A stretch of 36,238 nucleotides of DNA from a virus: positions 1-36,238 of the IMG/VR virus record IMGVR_UViG_3300027763_000132; one strand, 5' to 3'. Made by a program: the position numbers and the translations under genes. Shown piece by piece: positions 936 through 36,238 of this stretch (positions are counted from its first letter, which is position 1; each line of letters begins with the position of its first letter). Below the pieces are notes generated by a model. The model had not been told where the DNA came from. It saw only the letters and a list, made by a program, of their open reading frames with translations, and made no database searches.

Positions 936-1724
936 ATGACTGAAGAAGTCCAAAACCTAGCGGAAGTTGACTCCGCGCCATCTCCTGAAGTGACGACCAC
1001 TCCTGAGAATGTAGAACAAAAGTCGGTAGTTGCTGATGAAAGCACCGATCAGTCTGTTGAGGAAAAGAAATACTCGCAAGCTGATATTGATGCAATGATT
1101 GGCAAACGCCTCGCAAGAGAGCAACGTAAGTGGGAACGTGAACAAGCGCAACGATCTGTTGAAAGACAAGTCGTGCCAAGTGAGATTCCAACGCCAGACC
1201 AGTTTCAATCTCCTAATGACTATGCGGAGTTCATCCGTTTAGAGGCAGATAAGCTAGTCCAGCAACGGGAAGCCGCAAAGCAACAGTCGCAAGTTCTAGA
1301 GAGCTATCAAGAGCGTGAAGAGATGGCGCGGGATAAATATGATGACTTTGAACAAGTTGCATATAACCCTAACCTACCGATTACAAACGTGATGGCAGAG
1401 ACGATTCAACATTCAGAAATTGGCCCTGAGTTAGCTTACTATCTCGGAACCAACCCAAAGGATGCGGAACGTATTTCTCGTTTATCGCCTTTCATGCAAG
1501 CAAAAGAGATTGGCAAGATTGAGGCTAAGTTAGCTGATAACCCGCCAATTAAAAAAACGACTTCTGCACCAGCACCGATTTCGCCTGTTACAGCAAGAAC
1601 CACTGGTTCACCAGCCTTAGACACTACGGACCCGCGCTCTATCAAGAGCATGACAACTTCGCAGTGGATTGAAGCTGAACGCTTACGACAGACAAAGAAG
1701 TGGGAAGCGCAGCGCAACCGCTAA
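936..1724 (+). CDS. Capsid scaffolding protein
   Basis: This 262-aa, highly charged protein has an acidic, low-complexity N-terminus (about residues 1-45), a KYSQADIDAMIGKRLAREQ-type helix (about 45-65), a central Glu/Gln-rich coiled coil, and a basic C-terminal helix ending in WEAQRNR. That acidic-start, basic-tail architecture and the position just upstream of the coat gene are typical of phage scaffolds, which direct procapsid assembly through a basic C-terminus that binds coat and then leave the shell. An AGGA ribosome binding site precedes the ATG. Assignment rests on architecture and context. Confidence 0.8.
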   Translation: MTEEVQNLAEVDSAPSPEVTTTPENVEQKSVVADESTDQSVEEKKYSQADIDAMIGKRLAREQRKWEREQAQRSVERQVVPSEIPTPDQFQSPNDYAEFIRLEADKLVQQREAAKQQSQVLESYQEREEMARDKYDDFEQVAYNPNLPITNVMAETIQHSEIGPELAYYLGTNPKDAERISRLSPFMQAKEIGKIEAKLADNPPIKKTTSAPAPISPVTARTTGSPALDTTDPRSIKSMTTSQWIEAERLRQTKKWEAQRNR

Positions 1725-6895: not shown

Positions 6896-7267
6896 ATGAA
6901 ATTAACCGATGATGTCTGGAACGTGATAAAAACCTACCTGCATGACAGGATGGGGTTTAACGCAACGCAAGAAACGCGCAAATGGATGGAAAAGAACTTA
7001 GAAATTACGCCTTTTGATGGAGGCGCTTTTGTGGCAAGTGGTAATGAGTTTGATTTGTTTGTTGTTCCTGAGAAGCGGTGTAGATGGAGCGTTAGGGGAG
7101 ATGGGATAAATTTTCTTAACAAAATGTCAAAGCTACACGATACAATGGTTGTAAGAATTTATGAAGACAATAAGCCGTCACTGCGATTGGCAAAGGGTTT
7201 CGGTTTTAAAGAAGTCAGTCGTAATCACGGCGTAATTCGATTGGAGAATTCATCATGGGCAAGGTAG
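6896..7267 (+). CDS. Acetyltransferase-fold virion-module protein
   Basis: This 123-aa protein has a GNAT-like end: NKPSLRLAKGFGFKEV (about residues 93-108) resembles the terminal acetyl-CoA motif of GNAT enzymes. Phage proteins of this size with a degraded acetyltransferase fold occur beside ejection-protein genes (T7 gp13 is the known comparison). No clear R/QxxGxG/A acetyl-CoA loop is visible, so catalytic activity is doubtful. The 3' end overlaps the injection protein gene by 13 bases. Confidence 0.6.
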   Translation: MKLTDDVWNVIKTYLHDRMGFNATQETRKWMEKNLEITPFDGGAFVASGNEFDLFVVPEKRCRWSVRGDGINFLNKMSKLHDTMVVRIYEDNKPSLRLAKGFGFKEVSRNHGVIRLENSSWAR

Positions 7268-8223
7268 TAGAAAAAGTTGGTGATATTGGGCAAGGCGCAA
7301 TCAACGCTGTTGGCGACCTTGGCGCTGGCATTGACCGCACCGTCCGTGATGTAGTACCAGGCGGCTGGACAACCGCAGCTTTGTTAGCTGGTGGGTATTA
7401 TTACGCACCTGAAATTGGTGCGTATGTAAATTCATCAGGCGCTACGGTTCCTGCGTCTCAAGTTGTTGGAGGTGCTAATGCTGCTGGTGCTGGTGCTGCT
7501 AGTGCTGCTGGTGCTACTGGTGCTACTGGTGCTGGTATGTCCAACTACCTGATTCCTGCAACTATGGCTGGTAGCTCGCTGTTGGGAGCTACCGCAGCCA
7601 CTAGCGCAGCAAGAACGCAAGCTGATGCCGCAAATCGTGCCGCACAACTTCAGCAAAATCAATTTGAACGACAAATTGAATTGCAAGCGCCTTATCGCCA
7701 AGCGGGAGAACGCGCCCTTGGTAAACTTGAATTGGCTTCTGAGTACACCCCGTTTGGGATGGACCAGTTTCAACAAGACCCAGGTTATGCTTTTCGTTTA
7801 AAAGAAGGTCAAAAAGCACTTGAACAATCTGCGGCGGCGCGTGGAGGCTTGATTTCTGGTAACGCTTTAAGAGCCGCCACCCGTTACGGTCAAGAAATGG
7901 GTTCGCAAGAATACACCAATGCTTTTAACCGTTACCAAACCGAGCGCAACGCACGCCTAAATCCTTTGCAATCATTGGCTGGTGTTGGTCAAAGTTCAGT
8001 TAATCAAATTGGCGCGGCTGGTCAAAATTATGCCAACAATGCTGGTCAAGCCATTGGCGCGGCTGGTCAAGCAACAGCGTCTGGATACATGGGCGTGGCA
8101 AATGCTGCCAACCAAGGCTTCAACCAATATTTAAACTACACCCAAAACCAAGCAACCAATAACTTGCTGCAACAAGCGTTGCGTAATCAAGGCAACAGGT
8201 CTAACCCAGTTTATGATTATTAA
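7255..8223 (+). CDS. DNA transfer / injection protein (internal virion protein)
   Basis: This 322-aa protein starts with an amphipathic, Gly-rich region (about 1-60). An Ala/Gly-rich low-complexity stretch follows (75-100, from a GCTGGT-type repeat around 7478-7540), then an FERQIELQAPYRQAGERALG helix (about 142-161), the segment QDPGYAFRLKEGQKALEQS, and RGGLISGNALRAA. That central block is characteristic of phage DNA-transfer proteins related to P22 gp7/gp20-type ejection proteins. It is expected inside the virion and released through the envelope. The C-terminus carries IGAAGQ repeats (an 18-base direct repeat at 8008-8025 and 8053-8070). Confidence 0.8.
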   Translation: MGKVVEKVGDIGQGAINAVGDLGAGIDRTVRDVVPGGWTTAALLAGGYYYAPEIGAYVNSSGATVPASQVVGGANAAGAGAASAAGATGATGAGMSNYLIPATMAGSSLLGATAATSAARTQADAANRAAQLQQNQFERQIELQAPYRQAGERALGKLELASEYTPFGMDQFQQDPGYAFRLKEGQKALEQSAAARGGLISGNALRAATRYGQEMGSQEYTNAFNRYQTERNARLNPLQSLAGVGQSSVNQIGAAGQNYANNAGQAIGAAGQATASGYMGVANAANQGFNQYLNYTQNQATNNLLQQALRNQGNRSNPVYDY

Positions 8224-8232
8224 GGGATAAAT

Positions 8233-9693
8233 ATGGCACTCGTTGACCCAAACATTGCAATGGGGTTCAGACCAACACAGTTTGAACAGCGCAATCCATT
8301 GCAGGAATACGCACAAATTCAGCAACTCCAAACTTCGCAATTGCAAAACCAGTTGGCTCGTCAGCAAATGGAGCAAGAGCAAGGCGTAATTGACTATTTA
8401 AATAGGGCAGATTTGTCAACACCATCTGGTGTTTCAGGTTTAAGCAAATTTGGCAAAACTGGTTTAGGTTACCAAAAGTTACTTACTGAACAACAAACAA
8501 ATGAGTTGAAGCGTCAAGAACTGAAAGGCAAAGTGCGTGATCAGCAAATGACTGCTCTTGGTACTGGCTTAACTTCTGTTTTAAACGACCCTTCTGACTC
8601 TAGCTTAACAGCGGCTTTTGATCGTTTAGACGCAACGGGCGTTGATACTACACGTTTTCGCCAAAGCCTTTTGTCTGAGCCTGATCTTGCAAAACGTAAA
8701 GCAGTTATCACGCAGTATGTGACTTCAAATCCAGAAGGTCGCCAAGCCTTAACCTTTGTACAGCCAAAGCCTGAAAAATTTGATTTAAATGGAAAGATTG
8801 TTGTTATAGACACAAACCCCAACAGTCCAACATATAAACAACAAGTTCAAGAATTTGAAAAGACTGCAACGATTGCTGATAAATTTGCGCGTGAAAAGTT
8901 TAATTGGGAAAAAGCCAATCCTGGCTTTGAACTTAGAGAAACTGAAGACGGAAATGTTGTTGGTGTAAACAAACGTACATTGCAAGCATTTCCTGTAATG
9001 ATGGGTGGTGCTGCGCCTGTTGCTCCTGCAACTCCTGTAGACGGTAGCCCTAGAGTTCCTGCTAACAATCTAGCCCCAACGCCAGCAAATGTTAATAGAT
9101 TAACACCAGCAAGCTCACAAGTAATCCCAGGCATGAATAGCGTGTTAGACCAACGTGCGCCTGCTGCTCCTGTGGCGACTACAACACCACAAATGCCACA
9201 AGCTGGTATGCCATTAAAAGGTGCGCGCAAAGAAGCGCCAGCTAAATTTAATGACACGGATATGCAATTGGCTGGATTGGCTGGTTCACTCAAAGAATTT
9301 AAAGACGAAGTTGGCAAGAATTTGACTACAGGTGCTAAATTTTTACCATCTGGTGCAGATACAGCTAGGATGCAAGCTAAGTACACATCTTTGTTGATGG
9401 GTGTGAAAGACTTGTACACGCTTGGCGCGTTGGCTGGTCCTGACATGGCAATTATTGAATCTCAACTTACAAACCCTGCTTCTTGGTCTGGAAAGTTCAC
9501 GACCAAAAAAGGTTTTGAAGAGCAAATTCAAGTCATTGAAGATATGCTAAAGCGTAGCGCAACAAACGTAGAAAACACTTATGGTCGCACACCTAAAGCC
9601 ACTAGAGAAGCCCTTAAAGGATTGCCAAGCGGTGGTTCTGGCGGTTTTGCTGGTGCAACAGCAGACAACCCACTTGGCTTGCCAGGAAGGTAA
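8233..9693 (+). CDS. Probable ejection / internal virion protein
   Basis: This 486-aa protein begins with a Gln-rich coiled coil (about residues 15-50, QIQQLQTSQLQNQLARQQME), then mixed helices. A Pro/Ala-rich linker lies around 265-340, followed by a helical C-terminal domain and a Gly-rich tail. It sits between the injection protein and another large helical protein, the place where podoviruses encode the proteins injected with the DNA. No enzymatic motif, such as a transglycosylase motif, was recognised. Confidence 0.72.
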   Translation: MALVDPNIAMGFRPTQFEQRNPLQEYAQIQQLQTSQLQNQLARQQMEQEQGVIDYLNRADLSTPSGVSGLSKFGKTGLGYQKLLTEQQTNELKRQELKGKVRDQQMTALGTGLTSVLNDPSDSSLTAAFDRLDATGVDTTRFRQSLLSEPDLAKRKAVITQYVTSNPEGRQALTFVQPKPEKFDLNGKIVVIDTNPNSPTYKQQVQEFEKTATIADKFAREKFNWEKANPGFELRETEDGNVVGVNKRTLQAFPVMMGGAAPVAPATPVDGSPRVPANNLAPTPANVNRLTPASSQVIPGMNSVLDQRAPAAPVATTTPQMPQAGMPLKGARKEAPAKFNDTDMQLAGLAGSLKEFKDEVGKNLTTGAKFLPSGADTARMQAKYTSLLMGVKDLYTLGALAGPDMAIIESQLTNPASWSGKFTTKKGFEEQIQVIEDMLKRSATNVENTYGRTPKATREALKGLPSGGSGGFAGATADNPLGLPGR

Positions 9694-9695
9694 TT

Positions 9696-11576
9696 ATGGC
9701 TACGCTTGTTGAGTTTCGCTCTAAATATCCTCAATATAACGATATGCCAGACTTGGCATTGGCTAACTCTTTGCATGAAAAGTTTTATGCAGATATGCCA
9801 AAGGCTGACTTTTTTAAATCTGTTGCTTTAAGTCCTGCCGCGCTGATTCCTGACAACGAAAAGATGATCACTTTGCCAAAGAGCATGACTCCTGTGGCAA
9901 AGACAGAACCATCAATGCAAGATCGTATTATGGGCGTGATTGAAACTCCATTGGCGCTTGGCGCTACTTTGGGCGGCGGTTTAATTTCACCTATTGTCGG
10001 TGTTGTTGGTTCTTTAGCCAGCGGGAAGTATGGTACACAAGAGGGCGTTCGTGCTGGTCAAGAAGCCATGAAGTCGGTGCAATATCAACCGCGCACACAA
10101 ACAGCTAGAGAGGCTTTAGGTGCTGTTGGTGAATTCTTACAGCCATTGTCAGCATTGCCACCAACCCTTGGCGCAACTGGTACAAGCCTCAACGCTTTGG
10201 CTGTCCCTGCTATGCAACAAACAGGTGCAATGGCTCGTCAAACATCTGTGCCAGCCGCTAATGCTTTGGCTAAAGTTGTTCAGCGTGAGCAAGCCCCTTC
10301 AATGCAAGGAATGGGCGCTGCTCAGACATCTGAACAATTGATGCGTGAAGAAAGATTTAACCGTTTTGGAATTCCTACCTTAAAGGGTGAACGAACAAAA
10401 GATTTGGCACAACAACAATTTGAATCTGAGGTTCAAAGAGGCGCATTGACTGGTATTTCCGAAGATACTAAAACCAAATTAACTGAAAAAATGCGTGGGT
10501 TTAAGGTTGGTCAAAAAGAGGCCATTCTTAATCAATTTGAGCGCATGACTGAAGAAGTGGGCGGCACAGTTGATCGCACAACGCCTCGCGCAGTTGGTAA
10601 TATTGTTGACAAAACAATAAGCGATCTATACACCAAAAAGTTTGACAATTACAAAGCGCTTTACAAGAAAGCAGATGATTCAGGCGAAACTTTAGAGCAA
10701 GTTCCTTACCAAGCCTTGCTTGATTACATTGGAACAAAAAGCACTACACGCCGTGAAAAGTTAGACCCAATTTTGAATGATGTGGCTGAATTGTTAGCCA
10801 TGAATGACCCGCAAAACACGGGGACTATTTCAATTCGTAATTTGGAAGACATTTTTCAAGTGGTTGGAACTGCCAAAGATTCGCCAAGTGCTAAACCATT
10901 AAAAGACTTAATTACGCAAATTGGTGATGGTGCTGGCGGAAAGTTGTATCAAGAAGCTCGTCAAGCCAGAACACAACTGGCTAAAGAGTTTGAAGATGTA
11001 TCTCGCGTTGACAAATTGCTAGGCACTAAGGCGGGTTATAAAGACCGCCGAGTTGCATTAGATGACGTTTACAACCATGTTGTCGTTGATGGTTCTTTAG
11101 AAGAAATGAGAACTGTAACTCAACTGCTTAAAAAAGGCGGTCCAGAAGGGCAGCAAGCATACAAAGAATTGCAAGGCTATACCATACAGCGCATGAAAGA
11201 TTTGTTGCTTAAAAAAGGTGACGAAACTGACGCTATCTTGTTAAACAATTTTAATAATTTTGTTACTCAACTTGATCGAGAAGACAAATTAGCTTATATG
11301 TTTGGCAAAACTGGCAGAGACACACTTCTTGATTTGCGACAAACTATTAAAGATGTAATGGTCAAAGAGCCAGGCGCTGTAAACTATCCCAACACTGGTG
11401 GTGTTGTTTTGCGTGGTTTAGAAACATTGCTGAAATTACCAGTAAAAGTTCCTGGCTCAAAGACAGCAGCGGAATGGGCGCGTGAAAGACAATACACTAA
11501 ACAACTTGAAGAAGCCCTAAAACAACCAAATAAACTAGCGCCTACGCAAGGTTCTAAGAATTCTCTTGCCCCATAA
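9696..11576 (+). CDS. Large internal virion / ejection protein
   Basis: This 626-aa protein starts with FRSKYPQYNDMPDLALANSL and HEKFYADMPKADFF (about 7-42), an N-terminal motif recalled from injected and polyvalent phage proteins. A hydrophobic Gly/Ala-rich segment (about 86-110, LALGATLGGGLISPIVGVVG) could insert in a membrane. The remaining 450 residues are charged and helical. It follows two other probable ejection genes and precedes the tail fibre gene. The role is inferred from N-terminus and context. Confidence 0.72.
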   Translation: MATLVEFRSKYPQYNDMPDLALANSLHEKFYADMPKADFFKSVALSPAALIPDNEKMITLPKSMTPVAKTEPSMQDRIMGVIETPLALGATLGGGLISPIVGVVGSLASGKYGTQEGVRAGQEAMKSVQYQPRTQTAREALGAVGEFLQPLSALPPTLGATGTSLNALAVPAMQQTGAMARQTSVPAANALAKVVQREQAPSMQGMGAAQTSEQLMREERFNRFGIPTLKGERTKDLAQQQFESEVQRGALTGISEDTKTKLTEKMRGFKVGQKEAILNQFERMTEEVGGTVDRTTPRAVGNIVDKTISDLYTKKFDNYKALYKKADDSGETLEQVPYQALLDYIGTKSTTRREKLDPILNDVAELLAMNDPQNTGTISIRNLEDIFQVVGTAKDSPSAKPLKDLITQIGDGAGGKLYQEARQARTQLAKEFEDVSRVDKLLGTKAGYKDRRVALDDVYNHVVVDGSLEEMRTVTQLLKKGGPEGQQAYKELQGYTIQRMKDLLLKKGDETDAILLNNFNNFVTQLDREDKLAYMFGKTGRDTLLDLRQTIKDVMVKEPGAVNYPNTGGVVLRGLETLLKLPVKVPGSKTAAEWARERQYTKQLEEALKQPNKLAPTQGSKNSLAP

Positions 11577-12355: not shown

Positions 12356-12940
12356 ATGTCTCTTGTTTTAACAGGCTCAACTAGCGGAAGTTGTACGCTA
12401 CAAGAACAAGCTGTGGCGGGAACGACTACGCTTACTCTGCCGACTATCACAGGTACTGTTGGTATCTTAGTTAGTGGTACGTCTGTTGCGTCTACTTCTG
12501 GCACAAGCATTGACTTTACTAGCATTCCTGCTGGCGTAAGGCGCATCACCGTTATGTTTAATGGTGTAAGTACAACTGGCACTTCACCACCCCAGATTCA
12601 AATTGGCTCAGGTAGCGTAACAACTTCTGGCTATCTTGGCTCAAATACTTTTCTTAACGCTACGATTGTTGGAGGCGCAAACTTTACAACTGGTTTTGGT
12701 ATTGGTGTTAGCGTTAGTTTGTGGAGCGCGGCTACTGTTTTTCACGGAACAATTGTTTTAACTTTACAAACTGGAAATACTTGGGTGTGTAATGGAAACA
12801 ATGGAACGTCTAACGCAGTAGGCACATATTTAACAAACGGTTCTCTTGCACTTGGCGGGACTCTTGACCGTGTACGCATCACAACCGCAGGCGGTACAGA
12901 AACATTTGACGCTGGTTCTATTAACATTCTTTACGAGTAA
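12356..12940 (+). CDS. Tail fibre-like paralogue 1
   Basis: This 194-aa, beta-rich protein is the first of three related genes. Residues 44-58 (VASTSGTSIDFTSIP), then RRITVMFNGVS, and the C-terminal LGGTLDRVRITTAGG and TFDAGSINILYE segments recur in the genes at 13101 and 13694. It resembles the small beta-sandwich domains at phage fibre tips or decoration proteins. It begins after an AAGGA ribosome binding site, 10 bases after the fibre gene. It probably forms a trimeric or multimeric distal element. Confidence 0.72.
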   Translation: MSLVLTGSTSGSCTLQEQAVAGTTTLTLPTITGTVGILVSGTSVASTSGTSIDFTSIPAGVRRITVMFNGVSTTGTSPPQIQIGSGSVTTSGYLGSNTFLNATIVGGANFTTGFGIGVSVSLWSAATVFHGTIVLTLQTGNTWVCNGNNGTSNAVGTYLTNGSLALGGTLDRVRITTAGGTETFDAGSINILYE

Positions 12941-12945
12941 ACATC

Positions 12946-13101
12946 ATGCCTACAAAAATCATTGTTGATCTTGCAACTGGTCAAGTTACTGAAGTTGAAC
13001 TTGAAGGCGCTGAGTTGGAGGCGTACAACGCTTCGTTGGCGGCTCAAGTTGTTGCACCACCCGCTGAAGTTGTTGCACCACCTGCTGAAGAGGCTAAATA
13101 A
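12946..13101 (+). CDS. 51-aa acidic protein between fibre paralogues
   Basis: ATG at 12946, TAA at 13099-13101. The 51 residues begin MPTKIIVDLATGQVTEVELE. The C-terminus is a tandem duplication (13048-13068 and 13069-13089) encoding VVAPPAE twice. The stop overlaps the ATG of the next fibre paralogue by one base (TAATG), which supports it as a real translated gene. Similar short proteins starting with an xVDxxTGxVxE segment occur beside fibre genes in phages. It could be a small chaperone or linker, but no function is known. Confidence 0.65.
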   Translation: MPTKIIVDLATGQVTEVELEGAELEAYNASLAAQVVAPPAEVVAPPAEEAK

Positions 13102-13691
13102 TGTCTGTCATCATCAACGCATCAACAACGTCTGGTTTAACCCAGACTGCTGACAACAGCGGAACGCTAGAACTACAAAGCAACGGCACGACTAAGTTAA
13201 CTGTTAGCTCTACTGGCGCTTACGGTCAATTGATTTCTGGTACTGCTGTTGCTTCAACAAGCGGTACGTCTATTGACTTTACAAGCATCCCTTCATGGGT
13301 CAAACGTATCACCGTAATGTTAAATGGGGTTAGCACAAGTAGCACAAGTGCTTTGCTAATTCAAGTTGGCTCTAGCTCTGTATCAACTTCGGGTTATACA
13401 TCAGTATCCCAAAACGTAAGCACAGGAACATCGTCATCGGCTGGTTTTTTGTTAAATGGTTCATCAGCAGCCGCACAAACTTACACTTCAGTAGTTCCAA
13501 TCTGTTTGGTTAGTTCTAATACTTGGGTGACTAGCGGCGTACTTGGTATCGGGTCAACGGCTACTAACATTACAACTTTTTCAGGTTCTAGTCCTGCATT
13601 GGGTGGCGCTCTTGATCGAGTTCGCATAACGACTGTCAACGGCACAGACACTTTTGACGCTGGTTCAATCAACATTCTTTACGAGGGCTAA
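13101..13691 (+). CDS. Tail fibre-like paralogue 2
   Basis: This 196-aa protein is paralogous to the products at 12356 and 13694 over its body and C-terminus. Shared blocks are SGTAVASTSGTSIDFTSIP (residues 46-64), SWVKRITVM, LGGALDRVRITTVNGTDTF and DAGSINILYE. The first 40 residues are different: a TSGLTQTADNSGTLELQSNG segment typical of the start of phage beta-helix fibre modules. The N-terminus is therefore modular while the sandwich domain is duplicated. It starts on the stop of the 51-aa gene and is 2 bases from the next paralogue. Confidence 0.72.
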   Translation: MSVIINASTTSGLTQTADNSGTLELQSNGTTKLTVSSTGAYGQLISGTAVASTSGTSIDFTSIPSWVKRITVMLNGVSTSSTSALLIQVGSSSVSTSGYTSVSQNVSTGTSSSAGFLLNGSSAAAQTYTSVVPICLVSSNTWVTSGVLGIGSTATNITTFSGSSPALGGALDRVRITTVNGTDTFDAGSINILYEG

Positions 13692-13693
13692 TC

Positions 13694-14218
13694 ATGTCAA
13701 CAATTATTGATGGCTCCGCAAGCGTCACGATTAATTCAGGTGCTGTTCTAGGCATTACGTCTGGCACAGCCGTAGCATCCACATCAGGCACTAGCATTGA
13801 TTTTACGTCTATCCCTTCTTGGGTGAAACGCATCACTGTGATGTTTAATTCCGTGTCAACAAACGGCTCAAGTATTCTTCAAGTTCAACTTGGTTCTGGT
13901 TCTATTGATGCAACGTCATACACTGGCTCTGCAACAAATATTGACAATGCTATTGGTGGTACTGCTAACTCTACTGGTTTTTTATTGTCTGATGCAAACA
14001 GCGCAGCAAGTACCATGATGGGTATAGCCACAATTGCGTTGTTAGGAAGCAATATTTGGATTTTTAGTTCAAATGGCACATTAGGTTCAGCCGCACAAAG
14101 TAATACTGTTGGTGCAGGCGTTAAGACGCTTTCAGGCACTCTTGACCGTTTACGCATCACTACAGTAAACGGAACCGACACCTTTGACGCTGGTAGCATA
14201 AATATCTTGTATGAGTGA
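13694..14218 (+). CDS. Tail fibre-like paralogue 3
   Basis: This 174-aa protein is the shortest of the three paralogues. Its N-terminus is cut to about 20 residues before the shared SGTAVASTSGTSIDFTSIP block (residues 23-41). It keeps the SWVKRITVMF, LSGTLDRLRITTVNGTDTF and DAGSINILYE segments. The middle third differs most among the copies, as expected if that part forms exposed loops. It overlaps the following membrane protein gene by 8 bases. Confidence 0.72.
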   Translation: MSTIIDGSASVTINSGAVLGITSGTAVASTSGTSIDFTSIPSWVKRITVMFNSVSTNGSSILQVQLGSGSIDATSYTGSATNIDNAIGGTANSTGFLLSDANSAASTMMGIATIALLGSNIWIFSSNGTLGSAAQSNTVGAGVKTLSGTLDRLRITTVNGTDTFDAGSINILYE

Positions 14219-25594: not shown

Positions 25595-25678
25595 ATGAAA
25601 ACCAATAAAATCAAGGGTTTAAGCACTTTTCGGCAAGAAATTGGATTATTACGCACACGCGCATGGGGTAATGAATGA
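25595..25678 (+). CDS. 27-aa basic peptide upstream of the terminase small subunit
   Basis: ATG at 25595 with GAGGTG 6 bases upstream, which is a good ribosome binding site. TGA is at 25676-25678. The sequence starts MKTNKIKGLSTFRQEIGLLR. Its stop overlaps the TerS start (ATGAATGA region), so its translation could couple to TerS. There is no domain. Either a leader peptide or a small protein. Confidence 0.5.
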   Translation: MKTNKIKGLSTFRQEIGLLRTRAWGNE

Positions 25679-26220
25679 AAAACGCAGTTGATTACATACC
25701 TGAAAGTATCGAATCGGAGAAGCCTGAGAAATTGCCTCGCATTTTGAAGATGGGAAGGCCAATGCTCTACCCGATCACCAACCCTATCTGGAAGCAAATA
25801 GCTGAAGGCATTAGCGCAGGCAAGAGCTTGACTAGCGTCTTGAAGGCTGAAGGAATGCCAAGCTACTCGATGGCTAGGCACATGATCACGCATAGTGTTG
25901 AGTTCCGCGCTATGTATGAGAAAGCCGTGGAAGACAGGGCAGACAAGCTGGCAGAGGAGATCATTGAGCTATCAGATGCAGAGATGCCTGAAGGCTTGAG
26001 AGGACCAGAAGCTAGTGCTTGGGTACAACAGAAGCGCTTACAGGTGGATGCTAGAAAGTGGGTAGCCAGTAAGCTAAAGCCAAGGACATATGGCGATAAG
26101 ATAGATGTGAGTGTGACTGACGCTAGGATTAGTGTCATTGACGCTATCACAGAGGCGCAATCAAGGGTAACATTCGACAAAGCTAGTGTCACAGATGTCA
26201 CTCCAAAAGACCCTGAATGA
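25675..26220 (+). CDS. Terminase small subunit
   Basis: This 181-aa protein has an N-terminal helix-turn-helix region (about 38-75: WKQIAEGISAGKSLTSVLKA, then MPSYSMARHMI), a central acidic helical hairpin, and the segment LQVDARKWVASKLKPRTYGD (about 122-141), which is typical of phage TerS proteins. It would recognise the packaging site and load TerL. The gene is followed by a G-rich tract and a large insertion-like gene before TerL, not by TerL directly. Confidence 0.82.
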   Translation: MKNAVDYIPESIESEKPEKLPRILKMGRPMLYPITNPIWKQIAEGISAGKSLTSVLKAEGMPSYSMARHMITHSVEFRAMYEKAVEDRADKLAEEIIELSDAEMPEGLRGPEASAWVQQKRLQVDARKWVASKLKPRTYGDKIDVSVTDARISVIDAITEAQSRVTFDKASVTDVTPKDPE

Positions 26221-26368: not shown

Positions 26369-28669
26369 ATGCCAATAAACAATTCGCTAACACCTGCAGG
26401 CCAAAACGAACTTGGAGCCGCCTTTGGTTATTACCCTAGTATGGGTAGGCGTAGGCTACAAGACCCTGTAGGGGCGACTGAAGTGCCTTTACAGATGCTT
26501 AGGGGTAGGGTAGCGGGTACGTTGGGATTGCCTTCTGATGTGTTGAATGTGGTCAGAAGCCCTATGCCGATGGAGATGTTTGGGGATGTTGATTACAGCC
26601 AGCAGAAACTTCTACCTTACGGGACTAGTCAGTTACTCAAGGAGTTGCCGTTAGCGCCTACATCTAGGGTTGGTGAGGTAGCGGGGGAAATTGGTTCGGT
26701 TGCGCCGATGACACCGATGGAGGCGTTACAGGCTGCTCGGTTGGCTCGTCAAACTGCAATGGCTGGTGGTCGGGTAGCAAAGCAGGGCGCTCGATTGGTT
26801 GGAGAAGAGTTCAATGCCGCAATGATGGGTCAGAGGCCAAACACGCTTCTTGGTGCTATTACGCCAAAGCCTATGTTTGCGGCAGAGCCTAATGCGAACC
26901 TGTTGGCAACAAGTGTTGGCAAAGAAAGGGCTGCTGTTTCGCCACTTGGTTTCTATAGTGCTGTAGAGCAACAATCGTTAAATATTCCGAGAAAACAAGG
27001 AACGGGCGCGTCTTTCTTGAATGATCTGATGAAGGGTCAAGATGTCAAGAAATATGAAATTGAGGCTATGGGGTTGGAAGACTTCCTAAAAGGCAAAACC
27101 AATGTGACCCGTCAAGAGGTGCAAGACTTTATTGCTAACAACCGCATAAATTTACAAGAGCGCCAATTGGGGGCAACTGTTACACCAGACCCAATAGGAA
27201 TAGCCAAACGAGAAGAAATATTTAATAAATACAACCCACAAATACAGGCTTTGGAAAGCGAATATTCTAAATTTAACAGGGCTTTAGATGAGCAAACAAT
27301 GGTTGCTAGAGATAATTTTGCCAATGCTCATGCCAGACTAAACACTCAGGGATATACGCCTACGGCACAAGATTACGAGGCTTACAACTTAGCAGAAGCA
27401 AAGTTACAACAAATTCGTTCTACTCCTCGCAGTATGAGTGACTTTCAGCAAAAGTCAGAAGAATTGAGAAACATGAGAGATACAGAGGCAAACGCGGCTT
27501 ATGTAGTCCCAGAACCAACGCCTACTAAATACGAAAAATATCAATTGCCAGGTGGTGAGAACTACCGCGAAATATTGTTAAAACTGCCACCAACCGAAAA
27601 TGTTGTACAGCAATGGATAGTTTATAGACCTAATGGTGCATCTATTGGTGGATATTCATCAGAAGAATATGCTAAACGAGCTGCACAAGAAGTAGGCGGT
27701 ACTTACAAACAAGGCGAATCATTAAGAGGCGAGGCTGGTTACAGATCAAGCCATTGGAGTGACCCTAATGTTTTAGCCCACATGAGGGTTAATGATCGAG
27801 TAGACGCACAAGGCAAAAAAATGTTACTGATTGAAGAAGTGCAATCAGATTGGCATCAGGCGGGACGGGAAAAAGGATATGCAAGTCCTGCTGATAAAAA
27901 AGCATTAGAAAATGAATTAAATAATGTTGCTAAAGAAAGAAACGATTTGGTAGCCGAACTTTCTAAATACGAACAGCAAAATGGCTTTTTGTCGCTTGAA
28001 ATGCAACAAAGATGGGATAAATTTAAAGAAAAAGAAGATTTGCTTAAACAAAAAAACAAAGACTTTTCAAGCCAACCACCAGACGCACCATTTAAAGATA
28101 CTTGGCATCAACTAGCTCTAAAAAGAGCAATTAAGGAAGCTGTGGACAAAGGCTATGACAGGATTGGCTTAACTACTGGGGCGCAACAAGCATCAAGATA
28201 TGACCTTGCAAAATCAGTTGATTACATTGATTACAAAACATTAGGTCATGGCGAAAATGCTAAATATTCATTAGGAATTGTTGATAAAAATCAACAAGGC
28301 ATAGATTTGCCAAAAGAATATTACACCGCTAAAGAGCTACCCGAAATAGTTGGAAAAGAAATTGCTGACAAAATTATTAAAGGCGAAGGTCAATCTGGCG
28401 GTGGACGCATGACATTAAGAGGCGTTGATCTACAAGTTGGCGGCGAAGGCATGAAAAAATATTACGATGAGATATACCCCAACTTTTTAAACAAATTTGG
28501 CAAAAAGTATGGCGCTCAAGTAGGTGAAACGCGCATTAAAACTGGTCGCGGAGTGCCAGGCGGTGAACCAATACGCTATTTAGACATTACCCCAGAAATG
28601 CGTGATGCCGTTAAAAAAGGTCAGCCACTAGCATCTATTACAAACCAACTTGCAAACTCTTTGGCCTAA
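26369..28669 (+). CDS. Large polyvalent-type protein between TerS and TerL
   Basis: This 766-aa protein starts PINNSLTPAGQNELGAAFGY, with a segment LRGRVAGTLGLPSDVLNVVR (about 45-64) typical of injected phage proteins. After a coiled central region (about 270-380) comes a conserved C-terminal domain (about 400-755): LIEEVQSDWHQAGREKGY, LALKRAIKEAVDKGYDRIGL, GGEGMKKYYDEIYPNFLNKF, then RYLDITPEMRD. I recall that domain from large polyvalent phage proteins. Its activity is unknown. It may enter the host with the DNA. The C-terminal half looks more AT-rich than the first. No Shine-Dalgarno precedes the ATG. Confidence 0.72.
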   Translation: MPINNSLTPAGQNELGAAFGYYPSMGRRRLQDPVGATEVPLQMLRGRVAGTLGLPSDVLNVVRSPMPMEMFGDVDYSQQKLLPYGTSQLLKELPLAPTSRVGEVAGEIGSVAPMTPMEALQAARLARQTAMAGGRVAKQGARLVGEEFNAAMMGQRPNTLLGAITPKPMFAAEPNANLLATSVGKERAAVSPLGFYSAVEQQSLNIPRKQGTGASFLNDLMKGQDVKKYEIEAMGLEDFLKGKTNVTRQEVQDFIANNRINLQERQLGATVTPDPIGIAKREEIFNKYNPQIQALESEYSKFNRALDEQTMVARDNFANAHARLNTQGYTPTAQDYEAYNLAEAKLQQIRSTPRSMSDFQQKSEELRNMRDTEANAAYVVPEPTPTKYEKYQLPGGENYREILLKLPPTENVVQQWIVYRPNGASIGGYSSEEYAKRAAQEVGGTYKQGESLRGEAGYRSSHWSDPNVLAHMRVNDRVDAQGKKMLLIEEVQSDWHQAGREKGYASPADKKALENELNNVAKERNDLVAELSKYEQQNGFLSLEMQQRWDKFKEKEDLLKQKNKDFSSQPPDAPFKDTWHQLALKRAIKEAVDKGYDRIGLTTGAQQASRYDLAKSVDYIDYKTLGHGENAKYSLGIVDKNQQGIDLPKEYYTAKELPEIVGKEIADKIIKGEGQSGGGRMTLRGVDLQVGGEGMKKYYDEIYPNFLNKFGKKYGAQVGETRIKTGRGVPGGEPIRYLDITPEMRDAVKKGQPLASITNQLANSLA

Positions 28670-28673
28670 ATAA

Positions 28674-30197
28674 ATGCAAACTCCAATCTACAAGTCAGAA
28701 GAAGAACAAAAGCTAATGGTTGAACTGTGGTCGCCTGCAATTGCAGACGATCCCGAAGCGTTCGTGTTGTTTGCTTTCCCTTGGGGGCAGAAAAACACAC
28801 CCTTGGCTAACTTTAGCGGTCCAAGAAAGTGGCAACGCGAAGTCTTGCGAGACATCACCGCCCACATTAAGAAGCAAAAAGGGCTGATTGACTACGAAAC
28901 CATCCGCATGGCTGTCTCGTCTGGTCGCGGTATCGGCAAGTCAGCTCTGGTTTCTTGGCTCATTCTTTGGATGCTGACCACAAGGATTGGCGGCTCGGTC
29001 GTGGTAAGTGCTAACAGCGAGAACCAATTGCGCTCGGTCACATGGGCTGAATTGACAAAATGGGCAGCAATGCTTATCAATAGTCATTGGTGGGAGATTT
29101 CAGCGACAAAGTTAGTACCCGCACAATGGCTAACCGAGTTGGTAGAGCGTGATTTGAAGAAGGGAACACGTTATTGGGCGTGTGAAGGCAAGCTCTGGAG
29201 TGCTGAAAACCCTGATTCTTATGCGGGTGTCCACAACCAAGATGGCATGATGCTTATTTTTGATGAATCTAGCGGTATTCCTAACCCAATCTGGGAAGTG
29301 GGCGCTGGATTCTTTACAGAAAACACACCAGACCGCTATTGGTTTGCGTTTTCCAACCCCCGTAGGAACGAAGGCTACTTCTTTGAGTGCTTTCACGCTA
29401 AACGGGACTTTTGGACATCAAAAATCGTTGACGCTCGGACTGTTGAGGACACAGACAAATCAATTTATGAGCAAATCATTGCTGAATACGGAGAAGATTC
29501 AAGCCAAGCCAAGGTTGAAGTCTACGGAGAGTTCCCATCTGCGGGTGAAGACCAGTTTATCTCCCCAATGATTGTGGATGACGCAATGAAACGCCCCAAA
29601 TGGAAAGACCTAACCGCCCCAATCGTGGTGGGGGTTGACCCTGCAAGGGGTGGTGCTGACTCTACGGTCATTGCTGTCAGACAAGGCAGAGATATTGTGG
29701 CGATCAAGCGATATAAGGGCGAAGACACAATGGAGATTGTGGGTCGCGTCATTGATGCCATTGAAGAATTCAAACCTACCCTGACGGTCATTGATGAGGG
29801 TGGCTTGGGTTACGGGATATTAGATCGACTGAACGAACAGCGATACAAAGTAAGGGGCGTGAACTTTGGAAACAAGGCAAAACAGCCACAAGCCTTTGGA
29901 AATAAACGCGCTGAGATGTGGAACGACATGAGGAACTGGCTAAAATCTGCTAGTATTCCGCAAGACAGACAGTTGAAGGCAGACCTGACGGGTCCGACAA
30001 AGAAGCCTAACTCGTCTGGGACTATATTTTTGGAAGGCAAAAAAGAGATGAAGGCTCGTGGCTTGGCTTCTCCTGACGCAGCGGATGCAATCGCTGTGAC
30101 GTTTGCTTTCCCTGTGGCGCATCGTTCGTACACAGAAGTGGCTCGGCGCATTGTGACTGAACGCAGTGCGGTATCTAGTGGTTGGATGGGGGCTTAA
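28674..30197 (+). CDS. Terminase large subunit
   Basis: This 507-aa protein is near the P22 TerL length (499 aa). The ATPase domain has Walker A SSGRGIGKS (82-90) and Walker B MLIFDE (193-198). The nuclease domain has VVGVDPARGGAD (318-329) with Asp322, TVIDEGG (371-377) with Asp374, and SPDAADAIAV (466-475). It pumps DNA into the procapsid and cuts the concatemer. The ATG comes 4 bases after the polyvalent gene. Confidence 0.93.
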   Translation: MQTPIYKSEEEQKLMVELWSPAIADDPEAFVLFAFPWGQKNTPLANFSGPRKWQREVLRDITAHIKKQKGLIDYETIRMAVSSGRGIGKSALVSWLILWMLTTRIGGSVVVSANSENQLRSVTWAELTKWAAMLINSHWWEISATKLVPAQWLTELVERDLKKGTRYWACEGKLWSAENPDSYAGVHNQDGMMLIFDESSGIPNPIWEVGAGFFTENTPDRYWFAFSNPRRNEGYFFECFHAKRDFWTSKIVDARTVEDTDKSIYEQIIAEYGEDSSQAKVEVYGEFPSAGEDQFISPMIVDDAMKRPKWKDLTAPIVVGVDPARGGADSTVIAVRQGRDIVAIKRYKGEDTMEIVGRVIDAIEEFKPTLTVIDEGGLGYGILDRLNEQRYKVRGVNFGNKAKQPQAFGNKRAEMWNDMRNWLKSASIPQDRQLKADLTGPTKKPNSSGTIFLEGKKEMKARGLASPDAADAIAVTFAFPVAHRSYTEVARRIVTERSAVSSGWMGA

Positions 30198-30487: not shown

Positions 30488-30729
30488 CCCTTAAAGCACT
30501 AAAAGACTGCGTTATCATTGAGCGCGATGTAGAAAAGCATGAGTTATTTGTGCTTCCCGCTGGCGACCCAATGGAAACAGGCGTTGTCGTAGCCATTGGC
30601 CCTGACTGCAAAGACATTAAAGTGGGCGACCATCTGTATTTTGGCGTTGCACAAGAATTTAAACATGAGAACAAGCAATATCTTGTTATGCGTGAGCCTC
30701 ATGTAACTGGAGTTTTAGAACATGGCTGA
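30484..30729 (+). CDS. GroES-like co-chaperonin
   Basis: This 81-aa protein shows the Cpn10 fold pattern: LKALKDCVIIERD at the start, a short mobile-loop region around 20-30 (ELFVLPAGDP), GVVVAIGPDCKDIKVGDHLYFG (about 33-54), and a YLVMREPHVTGVLE end (about 66-79). It is shorter than GroES (about 95 aa). Phage co-chaperonins (T4 gp31 is the classic case) replace GroES with GroEL in capsid folding. Its place directly before the portal and in the head operon fits that. Confidence 0.78.
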   Translation: MTLKALKDCVIIERDVEKHELFVLPAGDPMETGVVVAIGPDCKDIKVGDHLYFGVAQEFKHENKQYLVMREPHVTGVLEHG

Positions 30730-32929
30730 TTACACAGGAATTGCCGCCGCAGGCGCGGTATCTAACGGCGGCGGCAAAGCCAATAGTTCATCCGATGTCT
30801 TGGCAACAGCGCGTAGCCGCCTAGACCAAGCAATCTCTGCTCTATCCGAAAGCCGTGAAGACGAAATTGACGATCTGCGCTTTTATGCTGGTTCACCAGA
30901 CAACCAATGGCAATGGCCTGCTGACGTTTTAGCCACTCGCGGTGCGGTTCAAGGCCAAACCATCAATGCTCGACCTTGTTTGACCATTAACAAACTGCCC
31001 CAACACGTTCGCCAAGTGACGAATGATCAGCGGCAGAACCGACCAGGCGCTAAAGTCATTCCCGTTGACGATAACGCTGACGTTGAGGTTGCCGATATTT
31101 TCAACGGCATGATTCGCCATATTGAGTACATTTCTGACGCTGATGTGGCGTATGACACAGCTTGCGAGAACCAAGTTGCCTATGGTGAGGGCTATATCCG
31201 CATCTTGACTGAGTATTGCGACCCTGCTTCGTTCAATCAAGACATCAAGATTGGTCGGATTCGTAATTCTTTCTCGGTCTACATGGACCCGCTGATTCAA
31301 GACCCAACTGGCGCAGACGCTAAGTGGTGCTTTATTACTGAGGACATCCCCAAAGCGCAGTATGAGCGTGAATATCCCAATTCAGCACCGATTTCTACTT
31401 TGCAATCCTTGGGTGTGGGTGATCAGTCAATCAGTAACTGGTTGAATGAAAACACCATCCGTATCGCTGATTACTACTACGTTGACTACGAAAAGCGCAC
31501 ATTGAACCTGTACCCAGGCAACATTACTGCCTTTGAAGGCTCAATGGAAGACAAGCAACTCAAAGTCTTGTACGGTAAACCTAAGAACAAGCGTATTGTT
31601 CAAGACCCCAAAGTCAAATATTGCAAGATCAACGGATATGAAATTCTTGAAGAAGCAGAATGGGCGGGTAAGTGGATTCCTGTCGTTCGTATCGTAGGAA
31701 ACGAATTTGAAGTTGACGGGCGTTTGTACGTTTCGGGTTTGGTGCGTAACGCCAAAGATGCCCAACGTATGTACAACTACTGGGTTTCTCAAGAAGCAGA
31801 GATGCTGGCTCTTGCGCCCAAAGCTCCGTTCATTGGTTATGGCGGTCAGTTTGAAGGCTATGAAGAAAAGTGGAAGACAGCCAACACCAACAACTGGCCT
31901 TACCTAGAGGTAAACCCTGACGTTACCGATGGTCAAGGCGCTGTGCTGCCCTTGCCACAACGCGCACAACCGCCAATGGCTTCTAGCGGTCTGCTTCAAG
32001 CCAAGGCTGGTGCATCGGAAGACATCAAATCCACAACGGGTCAATACAACGCCTCGTTGGGCATGGGGTCAAATGAGCGTTCTGGTAGAGCTATCCTTGC
32101 GCGTCAGCGTGAAGGTGATGTTGGAACATACCATTATGGTGACAACTTAGCCCGTGGCGTTCGTCACATTGCCCGTCAGTTGATTGACTTGATTCCCAAA
32201 ATCTACGACACAGAGCGCATTGCGCGTGTGATCGGTGAGGATGGCGAAACAAAGATGGCAAAGATCAACCCTGACCAACAAGAGCCAGTTAAGAAAATTG
32301 TGGATGAAATGGGCGTTGTGATTGAGAAAATCTACAACCCTAGCGTTGGTAAGTACGATGTCGTGGCGACAACAGGGCCAGGCTACGCTACTAAACGCCA
32401 AGAAGCATTGGAAGCTATGGCTCAACTGCTTCAGGGTAATCCCCAACTGTGGACTGTGGCGGGTGATCTGTTCGTCAAGAACATGGATTGGCCTGGCGCA
32501 CAAGAAATGTCTGAACGCTTCAAGAAGACAATTGACCCACAGATTCTTGCTAGTAACGACAAGTCTCCTGAATTGCAAGCGGCTGAACAACAAATTCAGG
32601 CAATGGGTCAAGAGATGGAAGCCATGCACTCAATGATTAACCATGTTGGTAAGTCTATTGAAGTTCAAGAAATGCAACGCAAAGACTACGAAGCGCAAGT
32701 CAAAGCATTTGAAGCAGAGACTAAGCGCCTTGCGGTTGTGCAGGCAAGTATGTCGCCAGACCAAATCCAAGATATTGTTTTGGGTACGGTTCACGGAATG
32801 ATCACATCGGGCGACTTGATGGCAGATATGCCAAGCCAAGACATTGATGTTGGCATGGAAGAAATGCCACAAGAAATGCCCCAAGAAATGCAACAAGGAA
32901 TGTTGCCAGAACAAGGAATCCCACAATGA
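30722..32929 (+). CDS. Portal protein, P22 gp1-like
   Basis: This 735-aa protein is close to the P22 portal (725 aa). The N-terminal third carries ALSESREDEIDDLRFYAGSP, NQWQWPADV, RPCLTINKLPQHVRQVTND and QRQNRPG (about 40-108), which is typical of P22-type portals. A helical C-terminus ends in a Met/Gln/Glu-rich repeat (EEMPQEMPQEM). It forms the dodecameric ring through which DNA passes. It overlaps the GroES-like gene by 8 bases. Confidence 0.92.
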   Translation: MADYTGIAAAGAVSNGGGKANSSSDVLATARSRLDQAISALSESREDEIDDLRFYAGSPDNQWQWPADVLATRGAVQGQTINARPCLTINKLPQHVRQVTNDQRQNRPGAKVIPVDDNADVEVADIFNGMIRHIEYISDADVAYDTACENQVAYGEGYIRILTEYCDPASFNQDIKIGRIRNSFSVYMDPLIQDPTGADAKWCFITEDIPKAQYEREYPNSAPISTLQSLGVGDQSISNWLNENTIRIADYYYVDYEKRTLNLYPGNITAFEGSMEDKQLKVLYGKPKNKRIVQDPKVKYCKINGYEILEEAEWAGKWIPVVRIVGNEFEVDGRLYVSGLVRNAKDAQRMYNYWVSQEAEMLALAPKAPFIGYGGQFEGYEEKWKTANTNNWPYLEVNPDVTDGQGAVLPLPQRAQPPMASSGLLQAKAGASEDIKSTTGQYNASLGMGSNERSGRAILARQREGDVGTYHYGDNLARGVRHIARQLIDLIPKIYDTERIARVIGEDGETKMAKINPDQQEPVKKIVDEMGVVIEKIYNPSVGKYDVVATTGPGYATKRQEALEAMAQLLQGNPQLWTVAGDLFVKNMDWPGAQEMSERFKKTIDPQILASNDKSPELQAAEQQIQAMGQEMEAMHSMINHVGKSIEVQEMQRKDYEAQVKAFEAETKRLAVVQASMSPDQIQDIVLGTVHGMITSGDLMADMPSQDIDVGMEEMPQEMPQEMQQGMLPEQGIPQ

Positions 32930-33891: not shown

Positions 33892-36192
33892 ATGGCTGAT
33901 AGGTATTGGGTTGGCGGAACAGGTACTTGGAGTTCAACAAGCACTGCAAGATGGTCTGCAACATCAGGCGGGGCTACTGGCGCATCTGTTCCTACTGCCG
34001 CAGATAACGTATTCTTTGATGCTAACTCAAACGTAGGGACGGGCGCATTTACAGTAACAATGTCAAATTCGCCAAGGGTCTGTAACAACTTCACAGCGTC
34101 AGGTCTTGATGGAACAATGACCCTTGCAGGTACAAGTATTGGTTTGACAGTATCAGGAAGTCTTACATTTCAAGCTACTAATTTTACTCGTACCTATACA
34201 GGCACAACAACATTTGCCGCCACCACAACTGGTAAAACTATAACAACCAACGGAAAAACGCTTACAGGAGGTGTTACCTTTACCGGTTCTGGCGGTGGTT
34301 GGACATTAGGTAGCGCATTAGATTGTGGAAGTGGCACTATTTCACATCTTTATGGAACATTTGATACTGGAGGCTATGCTGTTACTGCTGGAAGTCTTCT
34401 TTCTAATAGCAGTATTACACGAACTTTAAATTTAAATAATTCAACTATTATATTAAGCGCAACAAGTAGCGCCCTTGTACTTTCTGGTGGAAATCTTACA
34501 TTTAATGCGGGAACTTCCTCAATAAATTTGACAAACGCTAATATCTTTAATAATAGTGAATCTGTTACATTTTATGATTTAACTATATATTCTGCAACAA
34601 TCGTATCATTTAGCGGCGCAAATACATTCAATCGGTTAACTATTACTGCTAATAACACTAATACAACCTTTTCAAGTTCAAATACAATTAACATTTTAAG
34701 ATCAATTAACTCTTCTTCTAATATTTCTAATTTTATTTTTAACGCAAATCAAACAATCAACAAGTTTGAACTAGGCAGCTCTAACTCGGACCTCAGCGCT
34801 AATCGTATAATGCTTCGCTCTAATTCTATTGGTACTCAGCGTTCGATAGCAATGACAAGCGGCTCTTTACTAGACAACGTTGATTTTAGAGATATTGCTA
34901 TAACGGGAACTACGCTATCTGGAATAAGACTAGGAGACTGTAAAGGAAATAGCGGCATTACTTTTGATGCCCCAAAAACTGTTTATTATGCTAACACAGT
35001 TACTGGAAATTGGTCGGACAATGCTTGGGTGTCCACCCCTGGAGGCTTGGCAGACTCTACTCAATTCCCACTAGCTCAAGATACAGCCGTATTCCAAGCA
35101 AGCCCAAACCCCACATCGGGTGCAACGGTAACTATTAGCGCCAACTACAATATTGGTACAATAGATATGTCATTGAGAACGCCAGTTGGTGTAATAACTA
35201 ACAATATGACGTTAGCAATGGGTTCAACTCAACCAGCAATTTATGGCAATTGGACTAACGGTACTAGCACAACTATAACTGGCGCATCAACTCTAACTTT
35301 TGCGGGTCGCCAAACACAAACTATAACATCGGCTGGAATAACATTTCCCGTAAATATTACTATATCTAATGTAAACACTACTGTCCGTATTGTCGGTAAT
35401 TTGACTGCTGGTAACTATTTAACTTTAAATGACAGCACTTTGAATTTAAATGGTTACACGGCTAGTTCTGCATACTTTGAGGCAAACGGGTCGCCAAATT
35501 TAACTTTTAATGGTGGCACATTACAATTTACGGCGGGTTTTGAGGCTTCTTTTAGTGGGTTGACTACAACTCAGGGGTCTAGCGCAGGAAAAATTGTAGC
35601 AGGGGGTTCTAGCCCTACTTTTAATGGCGGTGGTCGCATATACAATTGCACATTAGAAATTTCTTCTTCTATAGGAATAAACGGCTCAAATACATTTACA
35701 AATATTACTAATACTGTAACGCCTGTAAGCATTTATTTTGAATATAATACGACCAATACATTTACAAACTGGAATGTAAACGGAACAGCTGGAAATCTAG
35801 TAACTCTGGACTCATCTGATGGTTCAGCTAGTTTTTCTCTCTCAAAAGCAAGCGGAATTGTAAGTTCAGATTACTTAAATATTAATCATTCAGATGCTAT
35901 TGGAGGCGCTGCATGGTACGCAGGAACTCACTCAATAAAAGACGGCGCTACTTCAGGATGGATACTTACTGCTCCTCCTGGCGGGAATTACACAATCTCG
36001 GCAGACAACGGAACCTATGCTGTGACAGGCCAATCTGCTACACTTTTACGAAACAAGGTCTTGTCTGGCGGTTACGGGCTGTATACTTTGACGGGTCAGG
36101 ATGCGATAATCACTTTTGACGGCGAGCCTGTTGTTGTTAGTGAACAATTGTTGGTTAAACTTCGGTCATTTACCGAAAGAAGGAGATTTTAA
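33892..36192 (+). CDS. Adhesin-like beta-helix structural protein
   Basis: This 766-aa protein starts MADRYWVGGTGTWSSTSTAR and repeats a related motif around residue 370 (NTVTGNWSDNAWVSTPGGLA), two copies of a xGxWSxxxxW module that I recall at the start of phage adhesins. Most of the protein is Thr/Ser/Asn-rich with short strand repeats, consistent with a beta-helix. The C-terminus (about 698-741) has a GNYTISADNGTYAVTGQ-type repeat. The middle is very AT-rich relative to neighbouring head genes, suggesting acquired sequence. It may be a surface or host-binding fibre. Confidence 0.75.
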   Translation: MADRYWVGGTGTWSSTSTARWSATSGGATGASVPTAADNVFFDANSNVGTGAFTVTMSNSPRVCNNFTASGLDGTMTLAGTSIGLTVSGSLTFQATNFTRTYTGTTTFAATTTGKTITTNGKTLTGGVTFTGSGGGWTLGSALDCGSGTISHLYGTFDTGGYAVTAGSLLSNSSITRTLNLNNSTIILSATSSALVLSGGNLTFNAGTSSINLTNANIFNNSESVTFYDLTIYSATIVSFSGANTFNRLTITANNTNTTFSSSNTINILRSINSSSNISNFIFNANQTINKFELGSSNSDLSANRIMLRSNSIGTQRSIAMTSGSLLDNVDFRDIAITGTTLSGIRLGDCKGNSGITFDAPKTVYYANTVTGNWSDNAWVSTPGGLADSTQFPLAQDTAVFQASPNPTSGATVTISANYNIGTIDMSLRTPVGVITNNMTLAMGSTQPAIYGNWTNGTSTTITGASTLTFAGRQTQTITSAGITFPVNITISNVNTTVRIVGNLTAGNYLTLNDSTLNLNGYTASSAYFEANGSPNLTFNGGTLQFTAGFEASFSGLTTTQGSSAGKIVAGGSSPTFNGGGRIYNCTLEISSSIGINGSNTFTNITNTVTPVSIYFEYNTTNTFTNWNVNGTAGNLVTLDSSDGSASFSLSKASGIVSSDYLNINHSDAIGGAAWYAGTHSIKDGATSGWILTAPPGGNYTISADNGTYAVTGQSATLLRNKVLSGGYGLYTLTGQDAIITFDGEPVVVSEQLLVKLRSFTERRRF

Positions 36193-36238
36193 TGGCTATC
36201 AACCTAAAAGCAATTACCTCTACGATGGGGTATCAGCA
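36112..36238. repeat. Terminal redundancy of a circular contig (right copy)
   Basis: This is the exact copy of bases 1-127. It carries the 3' end of the adhesin gene and the first 47 bases of the 101-aa gene. It closes the circle at 36,111 bp. Confidence 0.95.
36192..36238 (+). CDS. 5' fragment of the 101-aa virion protein gene (full copy at 81-386)
   Basis: This is the start of the same gene as 81-386, cut by the contig end after 15 complete codons (MAINLKAITSTMGYQ) and two bases. It is present only because of the overlap between contig ends. Confidence 0.95.
   Translation, partial: MAINLKAITSTMGYQ

Follow-up and report, generated by a model that had tools for sequence, protein, structure and literature searches.

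An exchangeable gene slot between terS and terL of P22-like freshwater viruses encodes proteins that share a terminal motif with putative ejection proteins

What does a 766-residue protein do when its gene separates the small (TerS) and large (TerL) terminase genes, which are normally adjacent or nearly so? We addressed this question in IMG/VR virus record IMGVR_UViG_3300027763_000132, a record of 36,238 bases, and we refer to this whole stretch as the window. A preliminary description made from the sequence alone had placed an open reading frame (ORF) of 766 codons at 26369-28669, between TerS and TerL, and the ORF is present as described, with TerL starting 4 nt past its stop. The window carries a direct terminal repeat of 127 bases (1-127 and 36112-36238) and is therefore probably a complete circular assembly. 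The terminal repeat of a related genome (G003) is also 127 bases long, so this length likely reflects the assembler's word length in circular complete assemblies. Pfam and PHROG profiles identified a P22-like head and tail set consisting of scaffold, coat, head-tail adaptor, head closure, DNA-ejection protein, portal, and TerL, and the ejection-type module comprises three genes (Table 1). Ejection proteins 2 and 3 were assigned by position and had no Pfam family match. The viruses that carry the slot are a group of freshwater viruses of bacteria within a P22-like podovirus lineage, and two scans of genome contigs for prophage or host copies found none.

Table 1. Coordinates of the slot gene, its parts, and associated genes in the window
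Feature	Position	Strand	Basis
Scaffolding protein	936..1724	+	phrog_8865 2.7e-31
DNA-ejection protein 1	7255..8223	+	phrog_598 'DNA ejection' 2.6e-37
Putative ejection protein 2, tag internal	8233..9693	+	position
Tandem tag in putative ejection protein 2, residues 278-292	9064..9108	+	motif search
Putative ejection protein 3, tag at end	9696..11576	+	position
Tandem tag at extreme C terminus of putative ejection protein 3, residues 612-626	11529..11573	+	motif search
TerS, Sf6-type small terminase, left border of slot	25675..26220	+	PF20901 Sf6_terminase 1.1e-28; phrog_1482 5.9e-32
Slot (cargo) gene, 766 aa	26369..28669	+	ORF; homologues in 171 IMG/VR stretches
Tandem tag N-x-L-[AT]-P ... N-x-L, residues 4-15 of cargo protein	26378..26413	+	motif search
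Leader, residues 1-170, common to slot proteins of other body classes	26369..26878	+	sequence comparison, model
Body B1, residues 186-766, AT-rich, predicted discontinuous GNAT-like fold	26924..28666	+	composition, model
First long helical (coiled-coil-like) insert, residues 275-377	27191..27499	+	model
Second helical insert, residues 507-567	27887..28069	+	model
TerL, right border of slot	28674..30197	+	phrog_2 5.2e-45
P22-like portal protein	30722..32929	+	PF16510 5.5e-177

Three other regions of the window stood out. A phage-encoded GroES-like co-chaperonin gene (PF00166; 30484-30729) lies immediately upstream of the portal gene, and a tandem paralogue array at 12356-14218 consists of three adjacent genes (194, 196, and 174 aa), each of which matches the C-terminal part of phrog_29482. 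Another ORF of exactly 766 aa (33892-36192) has a repeat-like composition and is partly AT-rich (34.0-34.7 kb); Pfam and PHROG gave no match to it, and its first ~120 residues are similar to a protein of locus L129. Its length, equal to that of the slot ORF, seems to be a coincidence.

The slot gene has two parts, a leader with a GC content of 0.527 and a body with a GC content of 0.401, compared to 0.455 for the genome. A composition scan along the gene showed GC falling from about nt 26900 (residue ~177), and this break near residues 170 to 186 is the seam between leader and body. The second half is thus AT-rich, as had been described, yet 7.7% of the genome's 540-nt windows are equally low in GC, and AT-richness is therefore not unique to the slot gene. 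Leader GC exceeded body GC in 37 of 43 slot genes from the relatives described below, with class B2 as the exception on average. The label "polyvalent-type" given to the protein held in part. The C-terminal part (residues 458 to 757) matched positions 1806 to 2104 of the 2,564-position profile phrog_7348 (1.5e-20) and also a 2,387-aa Dolichospermum phage protein (tblastn, 8e-43), so it does match large phage polyvalent proteins, but no Pfam polyvalent (LPD) domain was found on the window slot protein even at an E value of 1. Pfam and NCBIfam gave no family for this protein, and a sequence-profile search against the PDB gave no relative.

We assembled two sets of IMG/VR loci, the best 80 of at least 594 TerL relatives and the best 80 of 171 stretches with slot-gene homologues. 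Among the loci of the first set in which both TerS and TerL were recognized (n = 41), the gap was occupied by a gene in 31 and empty in 10 (L090, L102, L109, L113, L115, L118, L122, L123, L125, and L126), with empty gaps of 104 to 390 nt; the body type of the window was present in just 5 of the 41 (L008, L025, L091, L093, and L129). In phage DSL-LC05, whose TerL is 72% identical to that of the window, TerS and TerL overlap by 1 nt. Excluding proteins shorter than 300 aa, and after L133, L134, L138, L140, L146, L155, L157, and L165 had been dropped by hand (long ORF away from TerL, or no long ORF), we obtained 43 distinct gap proteins. Their bodies formed 10 classes and their leaders 6 clusters, and the largest of these clusters was combined with 8 of the body classes. 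In the 903 pairs of these proteins, 88 had the leader in common and not the body (<12% covered), and 31 had the body in common and not the leader (<20% covered). Examples were L093 and L095, with leaders 95% identical and unrelated bodies, and L096 and L105, with bodies 95% identical and unrelated leaders. Mapping slot content onto a TerL tree (86 rows, 55 of them labelled) required at least 26 state changes and 7 switches between empty and full.

The closest relatives showed the same exchange at the nucleotide level. In L089 (genome G009; TerL 99% identical to that of the window), homology ran through TerS and the leader to residue ~123, was lost, and returned at the start of TerL. The break relative to the window lay at residue ~137 in L235 (TerL 99% identical), with a short patch at residues 161 to 175, and at residue ~174 in L231 (TerL 98% identical, partial). 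Behind these related leaders, at TerL identities of 98 to 99%, were a class B4 body in L089, a class B5 body in L231, and in L235 a body matching no other class. The L089 body has LPD23 and a HELQHA segment, and LPD23, ART-PolyVal-like, and GNAT-like segments occur in other slot bodies. Near relatives therefore either lack a gene in the gap or follow a related leader with another body. The point at which homology breaks off coincides with the composition change, and both findings bear out the earlier suggestion of acquisition or domain swap. Relatives with the gene as a fixed part of the packaging module and with even composition were looked for and not found. A fixed packaging gene is ruled out by the empty slots and swapped bodies; the gap between TerS and TerL is a recurrent exchangeable slot that accepts many unrelated bodies, and leaders can be exchanged as well.

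A comparison of the window with L010, which has a related body, gave synonymous divergence (dS) of 0.61 for the body, 1.72 for the leader, and 2.12 for TerL. Since dS of the body is below that of both the leader and TerL, the body was probably exchanged after the two lineages parted. The body dN/dS of 0.21 indicates that it is under purifying selection.

The whole-protein structural model had a pLDDT of 68.5, with a poorly defined leader that was mostly helical or of low confidence, and a body-only model (residues 186 to 766, 59 sequences) reached 78.5. Foldseek searches with the models found no PDB match at an E value of ≤0.001. Weak acyltransferase rows first raised the suspicion of a GNAT fold, which we followed up with the second model of the body, and support for it stayed modest. 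In VIA, the best non-helical rows were the ICL2 acetyl-CoA domain (Z 9.7; 146 aligned, 3.7 Å), Rv1916 (Z 9.3; 152 of 162 residues), and NatD (Z 8.3), all of which we take to be acyl-CoA-binding GNAT-like folds. The alignment range covers the whole body, within which the two long helical inserts lie. Helical rows also reached Z 8 to 9, and the GNAT match is therefore a lead and not proof. Matches in BFVD carried the names "Large polyvalent protein associated domain" and "ART-PolyVal-like," and no acetyltransferase family of Pfam or NCBIfam matched the window slot protein. The most probable identity of the window body on these models is an acyltransferase resembling GNATs, with two inserted helical segments. 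GNATs do occur in polyvalent proteins, according to the part of PMC5512222 that we consulted.

Body B1 is found at several positions. In the best 80 of the 171 B1 loci, the gene lay directly upstream of a window-type TerL in 11 and upstream of another TerL in 43 (54 in total), between TerL and portal in 11 (2 of which have TerL cut off), immediately after ejection-type genes in 10, and before another gene family in 4; 1 was unplaced. A distant homologue, gp34 of Pelagibacter phage HTVC028P, is directly beside a gene annotated as encoding an internal virion protein. Judged from these gene neighborhoods, the body type tracks virion and packaging genes and not one locus.

The slot protein of the window begins with MPINNSLTPAGQNEL. 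Of the putative ejection proteins in this genome, the last ends with NKLAPTQGSKNSLAP and the second contains NNLAPTPANVNRLTP. These sequences share a tandem tag of the form N-x-L-[AT]-P. All five matches to N.L[AT]P in the window fell within the slot protein and putative ejection proteins 2 and 3, compared to a mean of 0.26 in shuffled proteomes. Across the window and 12 relatives, the motif had 35 occurrences in 20,524 aa of slot and putative ejection proteins and 4 in the remaining 114,147 aa, and 23 letter-permuted motifs gave at most 7 matches in the slot and putative ejection proteins. These counts include related copies, and Fisher tests on them overstate the significance. The four outside matches were in small tagged genes of G009 and G003, the TerS of G004, and a w6296 homologue of G010. 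The motif is thus shared between the two kinds of protein and is specific to them. Codons differ between motif copies within one genome, which indicates that selection acts on the protein.

A looser tandem pattern (N-x-L twice within the first 32 residues) was present in 5 of 555 other ORFs but in 40 of the 43 slot proteins, the latter count being favored by a rule that sought N..L and shifted 6 of the 43 N termini to an internal Met (L096, L103, L106, L112, L114, and L139); L092, which starts within its leader, was scored as a miss. The slot copies were mostly N-x-L-[AT]-P, and the leaders of G004 and G007 had the tandem without the strict N.L[AT]P. Two of the five other ORFs were small genes of the same region (150 aa in G009/L089 and the 192-aa type in G003/L092). 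At the other partner, N.[LM][AT]P occurred within the last 45 residues of 47 of 58 distinct tails of last-ejection-protein homologues, near relatives included, against a shuffled mean of 0.28. A tagged ejection protein was present in 10 of 10 genomes with a tandem-bearing leader and in 0 of 6 genomes with B1 behind another leader and ejection genes assigned, a co-occurrence confounded by descent because the tagged genomes form one TerL lineage. In G006, the slot is empty and the tag is kept in an ejection protein, and therefore the tag does not need cargo.

Further small genes near TerL had the strict motif at an end (L116, L132, L135, L141, and L146). Small genes starting with N-x-L-[AT]-P were seen at L089:7791-8243, L092:3730-4308, L116:1814-2239, L132:674-1258, L141:693-1346, and L146:5149-5553; these tag-first genes, mostly next to TerL, are possibly additional cargo families. 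A second tail motif, [KR][IV][DE][LIV]-x-[GN]-[MF], ends putative ejection proteins of tagged and untagged phages (G001:14212-16050, G003:19002-20717, G009:7645-9552, and G017:25508-27544) and occurred in 4 of 1,301 ORFs. In 11 genomes lacking the N-x-L-[AT]-P tag, we compared the terminal words of cargo proteins with those of the other proteins, and for most genomes sharing was near the shuffled level. The test relies on 6-mers with a single mismatch allowed and copes poorly with a degenerate tag, which is why it yields little in the window too. By eye, the untagged genomes G021, G022, and G026 (L069, L078, and L034) had a GLLFGG word near the N terminus of both the B1 protein and the second ejection-type protein, and in G025 (L064), the cargo protein and its upstream neighbor had near-identical N termini. 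These similarities, which are not significant overall, are possibly other tags.

Based on these results, we consider it reasonably probable that the slot protein is an effector that is loaded into the virion and ejected, built of an address-tagged leader and an interchangeable body. We infer its loading, ejection, enzymatic activity, and target, with the motif and the gene neighborhood of the homologues as the basis for injection. The tandem N-x-L-[AT]-P would dock on the same factor as the ejection proteins, be it scaffold, portal, or the ejection complex, and docking would load the slot protein into the procapsid along with the ejection proteins. It would then leave together with the DNA at ejection, after which the body would modify a target early in the newly entered host cell. 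Recombination between the leader and the start of terL would replace bodies and so produce the fast turnover. In P22, the scaffold is required for incorporation of the ejection (E) proteins, and the N-terminal parts of gp7 and gp20 are sufficient for assembly, as described in the section of PMC8402733 available to us. A scaffold site is therefore our first guess for the tag receptor, which makes the scaffolding protein of the window a candidate. More tentatively, the tandem motif might be a lineage-specific capsid or ejectosome address code, such that any protein bearing it terminally would be loaded and injected, and the terS/terL slot an effector socket, with other lineages using other tags for the same body.

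The strongest rival to this reading, which we consider unlikely, is that the slot protein is the product of an intracellular moron, made late and acting in the same cell against superinfecting phages or host defense without ever entering the virion, with the gap as a tolerated landing site. A dispensable and variable gene with AT-rich bodies, and with the leader richer in GC than the body in nearly all slot genes, is what a moron would look like. However, a moron does not account for a leader motif that is common to the putative ejection proteins and found nearly nowhere else, or for B1 homologues that immediately follow ejection-type genes (10 loci among the best 80 of 171) or sit beside the internal virion protein gene of HTVC028P.

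The virion-loaded effector also has to be weighed against two readings in which the motif itself is not a docking tag. In one, the motif is a functionless relic, either because the leaders derive from the tail of an ejection gene or because leaders and tail both go back to one linker. A shared origin is conceivable, given that B1 genes of other lineages sit immediately after ejection-type genes. However, the copies differ in their codons, and in six leader clusters as well as in several unrelated small genes the motif has kept its terminal position, which makes a relic improbable. Alternatively, the motif might be cut during head maturation. Its terminal position fits a processing site, as does cleavage of the P22 gp7 N terminus by the host protease OpdA (stated in the consulted part of PMC8402733). 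However, the motif is the last residue run in several ejection tails, where a cut would remove little, and there is no head protease among the annotated genes, so we regard processing as quite improbable. That the slot protein assists TerS and TerL, and owes its position to this, is highly improbable, since 10 of the 41 loci have no gene there, the bodies are unrelated, and 26 of the B1 loci (best 80 of 171) lie elsewhere than upstream of a TerL, where the other 54 are found.

An ejected, tagged effector would resemble several known systems. Polyvalent proteins, as presented in the part of Iyer et al. 2017 (PMC5512222) that we consulted, likewise have body domains common to giant phage proteins and lie in a late or packaging gene neighborhood, and injection with the DNA has been proposed for them. 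The window protein shares the homologous domain in large phage proteins (phrog_7348, the 2,387-aa protein, and the BFVD matches), and its gene lies in such a neighborhood. Unlike polyvalent proteins, slot proteins usually have one or two domains and a short exchangeable leader, are encoded between terS and terL, and bear a terminal tag common to ejection proteins that this part of the paper does not mention for polyvalent proteins. The window body has one predicted fold, and the slot proteins of L119 and L121 have two segments, ART-like and GNAT-like, below Pfam cutoffs.

The MuF polymorphic toxins of temperate phages, in the portion of PMC5576092 at hand, also combine a conserved N-terminal region with a variable C-terminal effector in the DNA packaging module, and phage delivery has been proposed for them as we propose it here. 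Slot proteins have the same layout of a variable C-terminal effector behind a conserved N-terminal part. However, MuF toxin genes lie just downstream of the portal gene, whereas the slot gene lies between TerS and TerL in a P22-like podovirus and its leader is replaceable. The Pfam MuF domain (PF04233/PF06152) was absent from the window protein (E ≤ 1) and from 20 other slot proteins (E ≤ 0.1).

T4 internal proteins offer a parallel in how the signal would work, a short N-terminal sequence on dispensable head proteins, and the N-terminal ten residues of IpIII suffice as a capsid targeting sequence. The slot tag differs from it in sequence, in being also at the C terminus of a putative ejection protein, and in having no processing protease among the genes annotated here (T4 as described in the consulted part of PMC8402733). 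The P22 E proteins gp7, gp16, and gp20 correspond to the window in the P22-like head genes and the three-gene ejection module, but the accessible parts of PMC8402733 and PMC8954989 describe for them no common signal and no cargo slot. We found no account of a terS/terL slot or of a tag common to ejection proteins in the literature searched, which was mostly titles and the beginnings of abstracts.

The presence of one tag on an exchangeable slot protein and on ejection proteins suggests a plug-in system by which varied enzymes would reach the host cell. For P22, how ejection proteins assemble into the virion is in some respects poorly understood, according to the part of PMC8402733 that we consulted, and a motif found on putative ejection proteins and on a rapidly exchanged cargo gene is a concrete, testable candidate for a signal. 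If this reading is correct, injected effectors would be predictable from sequence alone by finding the tag, the occurrence of unrelated bodies in one slot would be explained, and the slot would provide a natural catalogue of early-infection effectors. It would also be a natural experiment, in which closely related phages differ in the effector that they carry.
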